Source: Sordariomycetes sp. S80-01Y | Taxonomy: Eukaryota > Ascomycota > Sordariomycetes | Direction of reading: 5' to 3' | Assembly (NCBI GenBank): GCA_037042185.1 | Contig: JAXQJY010000030.1 | Coordinates: 1,674,001 to 1,738,000 of the forward strand | DNA: 64,000 nt | Shown: one piece after another, positions 37,473 through 61,300 of the stretch | Layout: each line of letters starts with the position of its first letter | Position numbering within the stretch: the first letter of the stretch is position 1 | Program-made: the position numbers and the translations under genes | The notes under the pieces: generated by a model | Seen by the model: only the letters and a program-made list of their open reading frames with translations | Told to the model about the DNA's origin: nothing | The model's database searches: none

Positions 37473-40400
37473 ATGAGATTCGCACAATTTGCCCTGTCCC
37501 TATTACTTGGCGGTGCGGCCGGCAGCCGGCGACGAAATCAGTCTCAGCCGCCTCCTGAACTTGGGGCTCGAGCTGCTGAGGCGACATGCCCACCCAATTC
37601 GAGAGTTGTTCTTGAGCTCTTGCCAACCTGCTACACCAAAGCATTCACCTCAACTACTGTCGTCGACCCGTTCGGCAATGGCGAATTCCTGACCATAACA
37701 CGGGTGCCTACTACTGTCATTGTAACATTCATGCAGACCAAGGTCATCGAGGCTTCCACGTCTGGCTCTGACTCAGGATGGGTGACTATCAAACCGCCCG
37801 AGGTTGACAGCTCCCTACCTCCTCTCTTCCCTGAAGGGACCTTAACTCGTGGGACTGGTACTGCTGGTGGAACGAGTGCTGCCAGCACACGCACGGCAGG
37901 CTCATCCGGAGGCAACGGAGGCTCTACTAGACGCAACGAAGGCTCTACTGGAGGTGATGGTAGTGCCACGTCAAGATCATCCACGAGAAGTGGAAACTCC
38001 GACTCGGGCTCGGCCACCGGCACTGCGACAAGGTCAAACACGGGCCTTACTACGGGAACAGGACCCCCCGTTGTCTCAGGCAGCTCCGGCACCATCATCA
38101 CATCACCAGCTACCTCGTCAAGTCTTTTACTAGGTGCTGGTGTTCCCACCGGCGTCGTGACGGACTTGCCTGACGGCGACTTCATCATCCTGGCGATTAG
38201 CCCGAGCAGCACCAACCCTATCCAACCAACAGGTGCTCCCATGGCCCCGGACCCCGATGATCGAGCGTGGCTCGTTCGCAGACAGGCCGAGGGTCTCGAG
38301 GACGATGCGGAAATCCCAGCCGCGGCAGCTCCTCCTGAGAGCAGACCTCTCAAGGTTGTCGACTTCGACCATACGGAAGGCGTGGCGGACACTGTAAGCC
38401 GAGATCAATGTGACAGTGCTGATACACTAGTCCTTCGCGAAGGCAAACTTGTGCGGTATGACTACAGTGTTGGCAAGCCCATGGATGACACCTTGGCACA
38501 ACTGGGATTCCTTATTCCATCTCCAAGAAATTTTGTCAACTTGCGCTTCGCTTTACTGGATGGCATTCTCCAGTGGGTAGCCCCAGATGTTGGCGCCGCT
38601 GTGTTCTTTAGCTGCAACGGTCAAGTTGTGGCTGCCTTCCAGGGCATGATGCCGGCCGGCTGCTCACAGGTGGTTGTTGGTGCTATTGGGGGCAAAGCTT
38701 GTTATAGTCGGGTTCAATCAACTCGAAGCCCAGACGCTTCCTTCACGGCGCCTACTGGAACTCCGCCCTCGGTTCCTGTGCAGCAGTCGACCTACACCCC
38801 AAGCGTATCGGAAACCACGCCTGGCGCAACTACTTCGGCCTCGAGCGCGGTGTCTACTTCCACAGACCTGTCCGAATCTTCCGGCTTTTCCATTTCCACC
38901 AGTAGGCTTGGAAACTCGAGCATTCCGCTCACTCCTACCGGTTCCGATCCAATATCTTCCACCTCCACAGGGGTAGAGGGAACATCAACATCATCTGAGA
39001 CGGCTAGCATTACGTCCTCGCAGGTGTCTTCCTCGGAGTCATCGTCCTCGGAGTCGTCGTCTTCAGCTACATCGACTACTGCAGGGTGCGATCCGCCGTT
39101 CCAAACGCCAGACAGTGCCATTAACTCACGAATGGCGGAAGCTCTTCGAACAGGCAACCCGGATCTTGTAACTCAGGACGAGCTATATCGCCAAATCCAA
39201 GCGTCATTGGATGGACGTCGAAACTTTGCCTATGATATCGTCCCAAATGATACAACTGTGACATGGCTGCTGGACCCCAACACAGGCTACGTAAGGAATC
39301 CTGGTCCTCTCACAGCCTTGTTGATCGGCAACAGAAACACAGTCGAACCCAGCACCCCTAACCCTGCAAACAAGACCCTGGCAGCCATTGGCGCAGCTGC
39401 TGGTTTCGATGCGCGGATGGCATATTTTGGTGGCAACCCATTGATCACGAATGATGCTGGAACCGCTACGTGGCGGCCGGCAACGGATGAAGGTCTCAGG
39501 CTTACGGTGCAAAACACTGTTCGCTACCTGGTACCGATTGACACATGTAATGGTCCGACGCAGGCCCCTGACTTTAGCGATCTGAACATTGTTCTTTCGA
39601 TGGCTAAAAATGGGGCAGCTGAGACCGCAACATTGAAGTCTCTTAATACGACGTTTCCTGGCGCTGTTGTGAATGGCGGTAAGACGGCCGCCAATGCCTG
39701 CGATTTCGTGGCTGGACAGAGTAACTCATGCTTGGCTGGTGCGAACCTGCTTATTGTGGGAGACGACATTGCTGTTGGTGACGATACTATTGCCCAGCAA
39801 ATTGTTGATGCTCATAAAGCTGGTCTTGCCTTGTTTGTGATGACAGAGAATGGTAACCCTTACCCTCTGTCAAGCAAAATTGCTGTGCTTCTTGGTTTTG
39901 GCACTGCCCAAAACTACTTTGGCGGTAGAACGGTGATCGAGCAGGCTACCAAAGAGTATCTGGTCCCCGATTCCGTCATCTCGGACCAGTATACGGCGGA
40001 CGCTTTGACCTTCAGGCAATACCTCCGCGATGACCCGCTGGTGCCTGCTGACTACGCTGCCTGTGTAGGAGGCCCTGACTCAAGCATATATGTCGGAGAC
40101 ATTGCACTCAAGGACTGCATCGAGAAGCCACCCGCTGGTGTATCAACCCGTGCGCGGCCGTACTTTGCAGCCCTAACAAGATTCCGGGTGATATTTGACG
40201 GCCTTTCAGGCAGCGGCATCGACATGTTCAACGCTACCTATGGCAGTCAGACAGAGACTCTGCGTGTCCTGACTCTCATCGCCGACAAGTATCGACGCGG
40301 ACCAGGGCCGCAGTCTGGTGATACTGCAGTTGCCATCTCATATCCTGTCGACCTGAAGGGCGACGGTGCAGCTTCTGGAAGAAGTTTCTTTGCTGATTGG

Positions 40401-42389
40401 CTATCATCACGGACAACAAAAGCGACAGGTCGTGCAAAGTCTTTGGGATCATTATACTGCATCACAAGGAAGATTGCTGAGACAGACATCGCCTCTTGTC
40501 AGAGTCCCAAGTTCCCTAATGTTGGCAACTATCCCCTAACCTTGAGGTCAACTCGGGACGACCGCTTCACTGCCACCGGCTTCGACATAGTCCCGGGAAG
40601 TGCAGCCACCGTCACGCTCCAGTCAGATCCTGGATTTCCAGTTTACATACGCTTCGGACCTGGCCAAGACCCACAGACTCGCGCCTTCCTAAGGCCCCAA
40701 GCCGATGCTATATCGGATTACAATCGCCCGGGTTTTGGCCAGGGTCCATTTGTACGACTCATGCCTAACGTCCCGGTCACTATCAACACCCCCTATGGAG
40801 GCCCCTTGTATGTGCGCCAGCGAGCTACCAGTGCGAACGCCCCAACCGATATGCAGTTCACGTTTTCTAATGTTGCTCGCCATCCTGCACTCTTCTACCC
40901 GGCCACGGATGCTGAATTTGATTCCTTTGTAGAGGAAGTGTCTACATCTGAGGCATACTGGGCCGACATTGTTGATGATGCATTTGAAATTCACTCCCCA
41001 ATCGCCCTCCTGAAGTCAGCACAAACACCCAATGGCTTGAGCGTCCAGGCCACGCCGCGCCGTACTTACTATAACGGGAGTGATGGTCTAGCCTTGCTGG
41101 TACAAGACTTCCGTGACTCGTGGGCGGCTGAAGAATACCGACTCGCTGGCCTCAAGATCCGATCGCAGCCTCTCAGCGATACCTTATCAGCCGATGATAA
41201 GCGCATATGTGCTGATCTGGGTTTCCCCTGTCTTAATGAGACACTGAATACTCGCGTGGACCATCAGCATGTTACCTACGACAGCTTTGCGTCATGTGGA
41301 GGGCTATGCTCTGGCAATCCCATCACGATTGCTGATGTACCTATGCCTCTTGACTACGGTACAGGCCACGAGCTCGGTCACAACCTGCAGCGTTTCCAAC
41401 TCGGCATCTTCTGGCCCGATACGTCTAACGGGGCTAACATGGCCAAAATCAACAGCTGGGCAAATTACGTCCGGCGTGATGGGGAGGTTTCCAACAACAT
41501 CTTCCCTTTCAACAATATCTATCAGTATTTCCGCTATACTGCTCCAGCGCGGGCCGGCAAGTCTCCAGATAACGGCATAATGGGCGACCGTGACAAGCGC
41601 AAGGATCCTGATGTTTTCAGCGGGTATATTTCCGCGTATGGGAATCTTACCCTCAACGGCCGCCGGGTGATCCTTGATGCGACGTGCACTTCAATTGGAA
41701 CATATCCAATCGATACTCCGCCGGCCGTCGCACTTGCCAACGCCTTTTGGGGTAATGGTGCGTACGCCGTGAATCAAGGAGTGAGAGTGGCTTTCTACTT
41801 TTCACTGCCCGACTTGCTACAAGGGCGTAAAATGTCTAATGGCGTGACCCTTACTGACGGTCGCGACATTTACACCCTTCTTTACCAGGCAGCTCGTGCC
41901 TTCTCGTCCTACGCTGTGAAAGAGGAGACTTGGTTGGCAAATCGTGCTTCTCTAGGGCTGAGCTTGTATGATTTCCAAGATACTGCAGTCTATGGCACTG
42001 GCAAGACTGTGAACGACATGATTGGCAATGACTTTCTATTGGTTCTTCTCTGTTATATTACTGGGTATGATTTCCGACCTTACTTTGCCTCACGTGGCGT
42101 TTTCTACACGTCGCGTGCCAATGATCAGGTCAAGGCCAACTTCGCGGCCGGACCTGGAAGCCGCGACTTGGGCCGGCCCTTCCTTACGTTTAACACTCAA
42201 ATGCCGCAGGTGAACCGCACTGCTGTTCTCGGGACTTCAGCAAATGCTTACAAGAGGAATGATGTGTATTTTGATGCAACGGACACCACTGTTACATGGC
42301 CGGGATCTGATGATAACCGCGACGGTACTCCGGAGTCATTGATTGGATTCACACCACGAAACTGTGCTGGGGTTGTCTCTGGTTCATAA
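37473..42389 (+). CDS. Giant secreted IMPa/M60-like zinc metallopeptidase with a mucin-like segment
   Basis: A single intronless frame of 1638 residues. A signal peptide (MRFAQFALSLLLGGAAG) is followed by a small Cys-containing head, a Ser/Gly/Thr-rich stretch (about 115-230), a block resembling the fungal DUF7908 type (about 238-410: FIILAISPSST, then RDQCDSADTLVLREGKLV to PAGCSQVV), a second Ser/Thr-rich segment (about 415-540), and then about 1100 residues like bacterial IMPa, which cleaves O-glycosylated mucin-type proteins. The zinc motif HELGH is at 1299-1303; a downstream EVSNNIF (Glu1338) is a likely third ligand region. DFRPYF and related C-terminal blocks also fit. Probable role: cutting host or competitor glycoproteins, or remodelling the fungus's own wall mannoproteins. 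The DUF7908 match is from memory. Confidence 0.85.
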   Translation: MRFAQFALSLLLGGAAGSRRRNQSQPPPELGARAAEATCPPNSRVVLELLPTCYTKAFTSTTVVDPFGNGEFLTITRVPTTVIVTFMQTKVIEASTSGSDSGWVTIKPPEVDSSLPPLFPEGTLTRGTGTAGGTSAASTRTAGSSGGNGGSTRRNEGSTGGDGSATSRSSTRSGNSDSGSATGTATRSNTGLTTGTGPPVVSGSSGTIITSPATSSSLLLGAGVPTGVVTDLPDGDFIILAISPSSTNPIQPTGAPMAPDPDDRAWLVRRQAEGLEDDAEIPAAAAPPESRPLKVVDFDHTEGVADTVSRDQCDSADTLVLREGKLVRYDYSVGKPMDDTLAQLGFLIPSPRNFVNLRFALLDGILQWVAPDVGAAVFFSCNGQVVAAFQGMMPAGCSQVVVGAIGGKACYSRVQSTRSPDASFTAPTGTPPSVPVQQSTYTPSVSETTPGATTSASSAVSTSTDLSESSGFSISTSRLGNSSIPLTPTGSDPISSTSTGVEGTSTSSETASITSSQVSSSESSSSESSSSATSTTAGCDPPFQTPDSAINSRMAEALRTGNPDLVTQDELYRQIQASLDGRRNFAYDIVPNDTTVTWLLDPNTGYVRNPGPLTALLIGNRNTVEPSTPNPANKTLAAIGAAAGFDARMAYFGGNPLITNDAGTATWRPATDEGLRLTVQNTVRYLVPIDTCNGPTQAPDFSDLNIVLSMAKNGAAETATLKSLNTTFPGAVVNGGKTAANACDFVAGQSNSCLAGANLLIVGDDIAVGDDTIAQQIVDAHKAGLALFVMTENGNPYPLSSKIAVLLGFGTAQNYFGGRTVIEQATKEYLVPDSVISDQYTADALTFRQYLRDDPLVPADYAACVGGPDSSIYVGDIALKDCIEKPPAGVSTRARPYFAALTRFRVIFDGLSGSGIDMFNATYGSQTETLRVLTLIADKYRRGPGPQSGDTAVAISYPVDLKGDGAASGRSFFADWLSSRTTKATGRAKSLGSLYCITRKIAETDIASCQSPKFPNVGNYPLTLRSTRDDRFTATGFDIVPGSAATVTLQSDPGFPVYIRFGPGQDPQTRAFLRPQADAISDYNRPGFGQGPFVRLMPNVPVTINTPYGGPLYVRQRATSANAPTDMQFTFSNVARHPALFYPATDAEFDSFVEEVSTSEAYWADIVDDAFEIHSPIALLKSAQTPNGLSVQATPRRTYYNGSDGLALLVQDFRDSWAAEEYRLAGLKIRSQPLSDTLSADDKRICADLGFPCLNETLNTRVDHQHVTYDSFASCGGLCSGNPITIADVPMPLDYGTGHELGHNLQRFQLGIFWPDTSNGANMAKINSWANYVRRDGEVSNNIFPFNNIYQYFRYTAPARAGKSPDNGIMGDRDKRKDPDVFSGYISAYGNLTLNGRRVILDATCTSIGTYPIDTPPAVALANAFWGNGAYAVNQGVRVAFYFSLPDLLQGRKMSNGVTLTDGRDIYTLLYQAARAFSSYAVKEETWLANRASLGLSLYDFQDTAVYGTGKTVNDMIGNDFLLVLLCYITGYDFRPYFASRGVFYTSRANDQVKANFAAGPGSRDLGRPFLTFNTQMPQVNRTAVLGTSANAYKRNDVYFDATDTTVTWPGSDDNRDGTPESLIGFTPRNCAGVVSGS

Positions 42390-59500: not shown

Positions 59501-61300
59501 ATCGCCAGCCAGCGCAAGTCTACGATGAATCTGCGCACCGTTGCGATTCTACCTGTTGCCGCTGGAGTACCTGTTGTTGAGTTTGGCCACCGGTTGATGA
59601 ACGCTTTGGCCCAGGTTGGACCGCCGAACGGCGCTACTTCTCTGAACCAGGCCGCCATTCTCAAGCACCTCGGAAAGCATGCTTTCAACAAGATTGGCAA
59701 GCTTAGGCTTTCACAGTACCTCGCTGACCTCGAGGAAAAATACGGGCTTGTCGTATACATTGCAGGTAAGCTCCCTCTTCTTGACATTGAATTATCTCGT
59801 TGTATGATGAGCAAACCTTATGTCCAAAGGCAAAGCCGCTGATGGTACATGTTAACTCTAATTTTTTCCTGATCACATCGCTACTCAAGCTTCAATCTTT
59901 CGTATTTCGGCGAGAATCGTTGCTAATCAGACACAGACACGAATGTCAATTCGCCTTGGACTCGGACGTGCATATCCCAAGCCGACAGCATTCTCCTCGT
60001 AGGTCTTGCAGAAGGCTCCCCCGCCGTAGGGGACTACGAACGTTTTATGCTTGGCACCCAGTCGACAGCGAGAAAGACTTTGGTGCTGCTGCACACTGAG
60101 CGGTACTCACCTCCAGGTCTGACAAGATCATGGTTGAGGAATCGAGTGTGGATCAACGGTGGGCACTTCCATATGCAAATGGCATTTAGAATGAATGAAA
60201 TGCCAGCGCATCCGCCGTCCAAGAAGCTCGGTCAAGCCCTCAAGGAGCGCGTTCAGGTGCTGCAGGCTGAGATTCAGAAGTACACATCCAAACGCGTTCA
60301 CCACACGCCGTACTACTCGCCCGAGGCGCCCTTCAAGGGCGACTTCCATCGTCTGGCACGCAGGCTTTGTGGTAAGTCTATTGGTCTAGTCCTGGGCGGC
60401 GGTGGAGCCCGTGGTATCTGCCAAATCGGTATCATCAGAGCCCTCGAAGAGGCAGGCATTCCGATCGATCTCATCGGCGGCACCTCCATTGGCGCATTCG
60501 TCGGTGCCTTGTATGCTCGACACGCAGATGTCGTGCCCATGTTTGGCTTTGCCAAGAAGTTTGCCGGACGCATGGCAAGCTTGTGGCGGTTCGCTTTGGA
60601 TTTGACGTATCCGTCCGCTTCGTACACGACCGGCCACGAGTTCAACCGTGGCATTTTCAAAGCATTCGGTGACACCCAGATTGAAGATTTCTGGCTCGAG
60701 TACTACTGCAACACCACAAACATCAGCAAAAGCCGTGTCGAGTTTCACACGAGCGGCTACGCGTGGCGCTACGTCAGAGCGTCGATGTCGCTTGCTGGCC
60801 TCTTACCGCCGCTGTGCGATGAGGGCAGCATGCTCCTGGATGGTGGCTACGTCGACAACCTGACCGTATCGCACATGAAGGCGCTTGGGGTAGACATCAT
60901 CTTCGCAATCGACGTTGGAGCTATTGATGACGACACGCCGCAAACCTATGGCGACTCCCTATCCGGCATGTGGGCGTTCTTCAACCGCTGGAACCCCTTC
61001 TCGACGCATCCCAACCCGCCCACGCTTGCGGAGATCCAGGGACGTCTGGCCTACGTCTCTAGCGTGGATGCGCTGGAGCGAGCCAAGACTATGCCGGGAT
61101 GTATCTACATGCGCCCCCCTGTTGATGACTACGGGACGCTGGAATTTGGCAAATTTGACGAGATCTATCGCATGGGACACAAGTACGGCGAGGAGTTCCT
61201 TCAGAAGATGAGAGCTCGCGGTGCATTGCCTTTGATGGAAGAGACGGAGGCGAAGCAAGCATTGCGGAGAACTACGGCGCCTCGTAGAGCGAGCATCTAG
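56530..61300 (+). CDS. NTE1: Lysophospholipase NTE1 (neuropathy target esterase homologue)
   Basis: Endoplasmic-reticulum phospholipase B that deacylates phosphatidylcholine to glycerophosphocholine. Three exons (56530-56807, 56860-59765, 59937-61300) give 1515 residues, normal for fungal NTE1. Two N-terminal membrane spans (about 45-75 and 94-110) are followed by cyclic-nucleotide-binding-like domains: one at about 150-330 with a long Ser/Pro-rich insert, one near 670-740 ([20 protein letters not shown]) and one near 850-945 ([19 protein letters not shown]). The patatin domain has GGGGARG at about 1215-1221, the nucleophile Ser1245 in GGTSIG, and Asp1363 in DGGYVDN, an intact catalytic dyad. 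Intron 2 is 171 bp, long for this window, with a GCTAATC branch site. An alternative start is the ATG at 56569. Confidence 0.96.

Follow-up and report, generated by a model that had tools for sequence, protein, structure and literature searches.

From what source would a fungus have obtained an IMPa-type protease, and does the sugar pocket of the enzyme still serve the specificity of its relatives? These questions are raised by a gene in a 64,000-nucleotide stretch of the Sordariomycetes sp. S80-01Y genome (contig JAXQJY010000030.1, positions 1,674,001 to 1,738,000; termed here the window), whose product (the window protein, P0001 in the alignments) comprises a Ser/Thr-rich head and a large metalloprotease core. 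The single frame described in an earlier sequence-only reading of the window was indeed found to be uninterrupted (Table 1). The explanation that we favour, with a probability of about 0.65, is that an ImpA-type protease was transferred to fungi, fused to its head and duplicated, and that the enzyme is predicted to cleave glycoproteins through an altered sugar-gated pocket. Computation establishes the family and fold of the protein, its intact zinc site, its head, its bacterial origin and the existence of a second copy.

Family and fold of the protease core

The core of the window protein matches NF038322, the ImpA/IMPa family model, with 468.5 bits over residues 557-1556 (curated cut-off 250), and a phmmer comparison of the protein with PDB 5kdw gave an E value of 6.5e-27. 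A fold model predicts the IMPa fold across the whole core, with 851 residues aligned structurally at 23% identity. The zinc site is complete, H1299, E1300, H1303 and E1338 making up the gluzincin set (HExGH plus a downstream Glu); these four residues and the letters of the CGxxCSGNP motif are invariant across alignment A2 (35 rows). These data bear out the IMPa-like block with an intact HELGH (1299-1303) that the sequence-only reading had proposed, and the similarity extends far beyond this motif to span the entire core. The window protein is a fungal member of the ImpA/IMPa family (MEROPS M88), a group of gluzincin zinc proteases. IMPa cleaves on the N-terminal side of O-glycosylated Ser/Thr residues.

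The label ‘M60', which had also been applied to the protein, is not the best name. Peptidase_M60 (PF13402) was not listed for the window protein at E values up to 1, which separates it from the M60-like O-glycopeptidases BT4244, AM0627 and ZmpB, and no match to the model was found genome-wide at an E value of 0.001. The Pfam models built for IMPa gave weak scores below threshold, with 17.2 bits for PF18650 (IMPa_N_2; cut-off 25) and 18 bits for PF18642 (IMPa_helical; cut-off 26.7). As the four fungal relatives scanned (4/4) also fell below these cut-offs, the models appear to reach the fungal branch poorly.

IMPa from Pseudomonas aeruginosa (PDB 5kdw, 5kdx and 7jtv) resembles the window protein in its fold, HELGH motif, third-ligand Glu, CGGxCSGNP region and NF038322 match. 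The two differ in the distance from the second His to the Glu, which is 35 residues in the window protein and 16 in IMPa, and in the DUF7908-containing head of the window protein. By alignment count, W692, Q720 and W685 of IMPa correspond to Tyr1295, Asn1342 and Asp1288, respectively.

Origin of the protease gene

Homologue searches returned 11, 82 and 182 matches (120 of the 182 among the matches listed), and the main tree was built from 58 of the 162 proteins collected. In this tree the 19 rows taken as fungal formed one clade (100/99), divided into two subclades of 7 and 12 rows. Four actinobacterial rows were sister to the fungal clade (96/83), and all six actinobacterial rows and the fungal rows were united at 100/100; a 45-row tree gave the same picture. 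An independent mark is provided by the region between the second His and the Glu of the zinc site. The motif W[PA][DN]T is present there in 25/25 fungal and actinobacterial rows and in 0/136 others, and the spacing of the two ligands is 35-36 residues in all 25 of the former, while a spacing of 36 occurs in only 2 of the 136 others. This shared insert supports the fungal-actinobacterial link. Two of the rows, P0020 and P0085, were called actinobacterial by their place in the tree alone. Fungal contamination as the source of actinobacterial rows was rejected for P0022 and P0086, which lie on chromosome-sized contigs.

The trees and the shared insert, in combination with DUF7908 matches in 4/4 heads of the window's clade (see below), support the earlier proposal of a bacterial transfer followed by fusion to a fungal head, and the protease gene was probably gained from actinobacteria. 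The presence of two fungal subclades indicates that fungi did not gain the gene very recently, as would be expected from old vertical descent with introns lost only in the window copy. The tree, however, lacks a vertical pattern: the fungal clade lies inside bacteria and is joined to Actinomycetota with full support, the insert is common to both groups, and the unbroken frame is not unique to the window copy, since a paralogue in the same genome has one too. Vertical descent is thus exceedingly improbable. The idea of such a bacterial transfer is not new, as Nakjang et al. (2012) proposed that an M60-like protein was a bacterial gift to the Aspergillus lineage (PMC3267712).

The nearest bacterial relatives in the tree are ImpA-family proteases from Crossiella, an Actinokineospora metagenome-assembled genome and Nocardioides baekrokdamisoli, which have the insert in common with the window protein. 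Their heads contain Big_2 (P0021 and P0085; weak in P0086) or PF24346 (P0020 and P0022), unlike the DUF7908 of the window protein. The ImpA-like proteins of Paraphaeosphaeria and Paraconiothyrium (P0009, P0016 and P0017) belong to the same fungal clade, with ∼45% core identity, although they keep the pocket Trp discussed below; the heads of P0009 and P0016 are Lys/Ser/Thr-rich and, in contrast to the window protein, had no DUF7908 match at E values up to 0.1. Two further ImpA-like proteins, P0026 and its relative P0094, display Ser/Thr-rich heads and are perhaps of eukaryotic source; P0026 has a membrane-like segment near its N-terminus.

The Ser/Thr-rich head

The signal peptide assigned in the sequence-only reading is partly sustained: the first 18 residues resemble one by eye, but a 19-residue hydropathy scan found nothing above 1.4. 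The same scan revealed neither a transmembrane segment nor a hydrophobic C-terminal tail. A glycosylphosphatidylinositol or membrane anchor was rejected on these grounds, and the suggestion of self-anchoring was not borne out. The two Ser/Thr-rich segments (Table 1) are clearly present, the densest 60 residues of the protein containing 36 Ser/Thr compared with a maximum of 29 in 2000 whole-protein shuffles. The DUF7908 block is likewise real yet marginal, scoring 29.1 bits when the segment was scanned alone and 27.0 bits with the head alone (cut-off 27), and it was not listed in a scan of the whole protein at E values up to 1. Elsewhere in the window's clade of seven members the domain scored 33.3 bits in P0003, 19.8 in P0002 and 23.5 in the paralogue segment. 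It was thus matched in 4/4 members with head sequence, two above and two below the cut-off; the other three members are represented without head sequence. DUF7908 appeared in zero papers in the literature searched.

The dibasic motif RRQ sits between Ser/Thr segment 1 and DUF7908. As it is kept in all four heads (of which P0002 and P0013 are near-copies), the first Ser/Thr segment may be a propeptide that is cleaved off. Kex2-type enzymes cleave after dibasic pairs, and the genome encodes one P_proprotein domain, which we take to be the mark of such an enzyme. PMT matches are found at three loci in the genome, and fungal O-glycans begin with mannose. A 60-residue stretch of at least 40% Ser/Thr was present in the head of 8/8 fungal, 4/6 actinobacterial and 2/41 other rows (55 rows with at least 60 head residues). 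Since such heads occur in most of these actinobacterial relatives, it is not necessary to suppose that they were added in fungi.

A second copy in the genome

The paralogue, P0013, is encoded by a likewise uninterrupted frame of 1574 residues on a different contig and has the same layout, with 65% identity to the window protein over residues 498-1637 and 50% over residues 8-498; P0002 is a near-copy of it. Comparison of 1554 codon pairs gave a nonsynonymous divergence (dN) of 0.306, with synonymous divergence (dS) saturated. By part, dN was 0.263 in the core, 0.245 in DUF7908, and 0.643 and 0.552 in the Ser/Thr segments. By this comparison purifying selection acts on the domains in each of the two copies, while the Ser/Thr segments look to be kept for composition more than for sequence.

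These values bear on whether the enzyme works in cis, using the O-glycosylated Ser/Thr linker that it carries as a substrate and so trimming or releasing itself. Such a role would be consistent with the strong Ser/Thr enrichment adjoining the core and with the PMT genes of the genome. It is nevertheless quite improbable, given that the segments have diverged in sequence between the copies far more than the domains (dN ∼0.25), that Ser/Thr-rich heads in actinobacterial rows suggest a trait that may predate the fusion, and that the fungal glycans start with mannose and not N-acetylgalactosamine (GalNAc).

A frame on the strand opposite to the second copy (L004:1251-3530, - strand) matches GLEYA and ALS-type repeats; it lies some 1.1 kb upstream, with a further frame between the two. 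At least four GLEYA matches occur in the genome, and the GLEYA/ALS-type protein is a possible substrate class or a chance neighbour. No telomere-like repeat was evident in the first 3000 bases of the paralogue's contig, which is AT-rich at its start.

The sugar pocket and the predicted substrate

In IMPa, Trp692, Gln720, Arg742 and Trp685 surround GalNAc, with Trp685 touching no sugar (PMC9325726). AM0627 binds the acetamide through the corresponding residues Trp321 and Asn347, both of them among those found critical by Ala mutation, whereas its Arg362 is not essential (PMC9325726). The conserved Trp residues form hydrogen bonds with the acetyl group through their indole nitrogens (PMC7542363).

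At the position equivalent to Trp692, four residues before HExGH, the 161 aligned rows contain Trp (150), Tyr (7), Phe (2), Ser (1) or Pro (1). Trp is absent from 7/19 fungal, 2/6 actinobacterial and 2/136 other rows. Tyr occupies the position in six of the seven members of the window's clade, including the window protein (Tyr1295). Asn1342, at Glu+4 (Q720 in IMPa, N347 in AM0627), is kept, while the alignment around IMPa R742 is gappy and the Arg equivalent could not be placed. Outside the window's clade 104 columns show a uniformity of 90% or more; of these the window protein keeps 96 and differs at residues 685, 786, 788, 971, 990, 1295, 1350 and 1435, three of which (685, 1295 and 1350) are changes from Trp to Tyr; residue 685 here is not equivalent to residue 685 of IMPa. 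The actinobacterial rows have Trp in the pocket in four cases and Ser or Pro in the two from Crossiella (P0086 and P0087), compared with Tyr in the window protein; the Crossiella proteins also display SND, not SNN, after the zinc-ligand Glu, showing that the pocket varies in the donor-side group too. With a specificity-linked Trp replaced by Tyr1295, the window protein may or may not belong to the GalNAc-dependent O-glycopeptidase class.

One possibility is that Tyr1295 brings no change in specificity, and that the enzyme is a classical GalNAc-dependent mucinase whose targets are mucin-type glycoproteins, whether from animals such as insects or from elsewhere. This would fit the whole-core similarity to IMPa, the retention of Asn1342, the Trp still present in P0003 of the window's clade, and the tie drawn by Nakjang et al. 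between M60-like proteins and host mucosa (PMC3267712). It sits less well with the loss of the acetyl-bonding Trp from all other members of the clade, with the mutational evidence on its AM0627 equivalent (PMC9325726) and with the named fungal relatives being Paraphaeosphaeria and Paraconiothyrium, though no search aimed at an animal link was made, and we consider a classical mucinase somewhat unlikely. The enzyme could also have lost glycan dependence to become a general extracellular scavenging metalloprotease, as three strongly conserved Trp residues are now Tyr. This is unlikely in view of the 96 highly conserved columns that are kept, the intact zinc site and Asn1342, and a fold model that spans the whole core.

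GalNAc differs from simple hexoses, mannose among them, by its acetyl group, and the apparent loss of the contact to this group makes O-mannose attractive as a candidate substrate. Had the pocket switched from GalNAc to O-linked mannose after transfer, the product would be a mannose-gated protease that remodels or attacks fungal mannoproteins, whether these belong to rivals or to its own host (the stalk of the enzyme itself included), O-mannose being the O-glycan of wall proteins and adhesins. This extension is speculative and rather doubtful. StcE, a different mucinase, did not cut O-mannosylated peptides (PMC13154189), and no ImpA-family protease acting on O-mannose was found in the titles and abstract openings of the papers listed in the literature search. 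Similarly, no fungal IMPa was described in the titles and abstract openings of the papers listed, most subscription journals lying outside the literature searched.

The favoured explanation would proceed as follows. The ancestor of the fungal clade would have gained the protease from a donor resembling an actinobacterium. The protease would then, in a single lineage of fungi, have been joined to a DUF7908-containing head and, by duplication, come to be present in two copies. The enzyme is predicted to be secreted, with its Ser/Thr segments O-mannosylated by host PMT enzymes, and processing at RRQ may release the first of these. It would cleave glycoproteins with a sugar-gated pocket in which the Trp-to-acetyl contact of GalNAc-specific relatives is no longer used. 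Several observations weigh against this account. Three of the 19 fungal rows (P0009, P0016 and P0017) bear fungal names and two are from this genome, the remaining 14 being taken as fungal by tree position. A single actinobacterial clade was not rejected by the approximately unbiased test (p 0.298), so the fungi may be sister to the sampled actinobacteria and not nested inside Actinomycetota. A model of the head (residues 18-425, from four sequences) had a predicted local distance difference test score (pLDDT) of 29, and the head therefore carries no fold claim. P0003, within the window's clade, retains the pocket Trp. Finally, Thr1297, which precedes HELGH by two residues, is unique to the window's copy (41361-41363), occurring in 1/161 rows where 151/161 have Glu or Asp, and together with the Trp-to-Tyr changes could reflect altered or lost activity.

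Genomic context and feature coordinates

The genome amounts to 30.87 Mb in 16 contigs, of which the one carrying the window measures 2.77 Mb. Its other frames match VPS15, a ClC channel, MoeA, NTE1 and a fungal-specific transcription factor domain, and the host is taken to be a fungus on this basis. Single open stretches near the protease encode 1461 residues of VPS15, 657 of the ClC channel, 604 of MoeA and 997 of the first part of NTE1, indicating that long uninterrupted exons are ordinary here. The sequence-only reading had described neighbours with an intron every few hundred bases and taken the lack of introns in the protease as a hint of bacterial transfer. The former was not confirmed, and the latter fails as stated; missing introns were set aside as proof of transfer because the neighbours hold similar open stretches. 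The intron-free frame fits transfer but does not demonstrate it. The NTE1-type gene consists of two open frames with an 84-base gap (59843-59926), as a short intron would leave. A long antisense frame (37631-38404, - strand) over the Ser/Thr-rich part is probably an effect of Ser/Thr codon composition. No RNA families or tRNAs were found within the window.

Table 1. Features of the protease gene, in window coordinates.
Feature	Position	Strand	Basis or remark
Whole open reading frame	37473..42389	+	1638 residues plus stop, no internal stop; paralogue of same layout
Signal peptide (probable), residues 1-18	37473..37526	+	Judged by eye
N-terminal block, residues 37-110, fold unassigned	37581..37802	+	Conserved in P0002, P0003 and P0013; dN 0.365 to paralogue
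Ser/Thr-rich segment 1, residues 111-232	37803..38168	+	39% Ser/Thr
Dibasic RRQ, residues 269-271, possible Kex2-type processing site	38277..38285	+	In 4/4 heads
DUF7908 (PF25485), residues 308-404	38394..38684	+	29.1 bits, segment alone (cut-off 27)
Ser/Thr-rich segment 2, residues 421-540	38733..39092	+	52% Ser/Thr
ImpA/IMPa-type metalloprotease core, residues 557-1638	39141..42386	+	Hidden Markov model match 557-1556
Tyr1295, place of IMPa GalNAc-binding Trp692	41355..41357	+	Residue census; Trp692 role: PMC9325726, PMC7542363
HELGH, residues 1299-1303, zinc-binding His pair and catalytic Glu	41367..41381	+	Invariant in alignments A1 and A2
WPDT, residues 1314-1317, in insert common to Actinomycetota	41412..41423	+	W[PA][DN]T in 25/25 fungal and actinobacterial rows
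EVSNN, residues 1338-1342, third zinc ligand and Asn equivalent to AM0627 N347	41484..41498	+	Roles: PMC9118916, PMC9325726
Tyr1350, second Trp-to-Tyr change, after zinc ligand	41520..41522	+	Trp in 92.9% of rows outside clade; Tyr in 7/7 inside

Significance

IMPa is used in the laboratory as a tool to map mucin-type O-glycans, and a eukaryotic branch in which the acetyl-binding Trp has changed represents a natural experiment in sugar specificity. If O-mannose is recognized, the enzyme would provide a tool suited to glycoproteins of fungi and of the dystroglycan type, and would show how a fungus uses an acquired glycoprotease. The gene is a well supported case of bacteria-to-fungus transfer combined with domain fusion. 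Should the enzyme turn out to be a mucinase of the usual kind, the family still gains a fungal branch.
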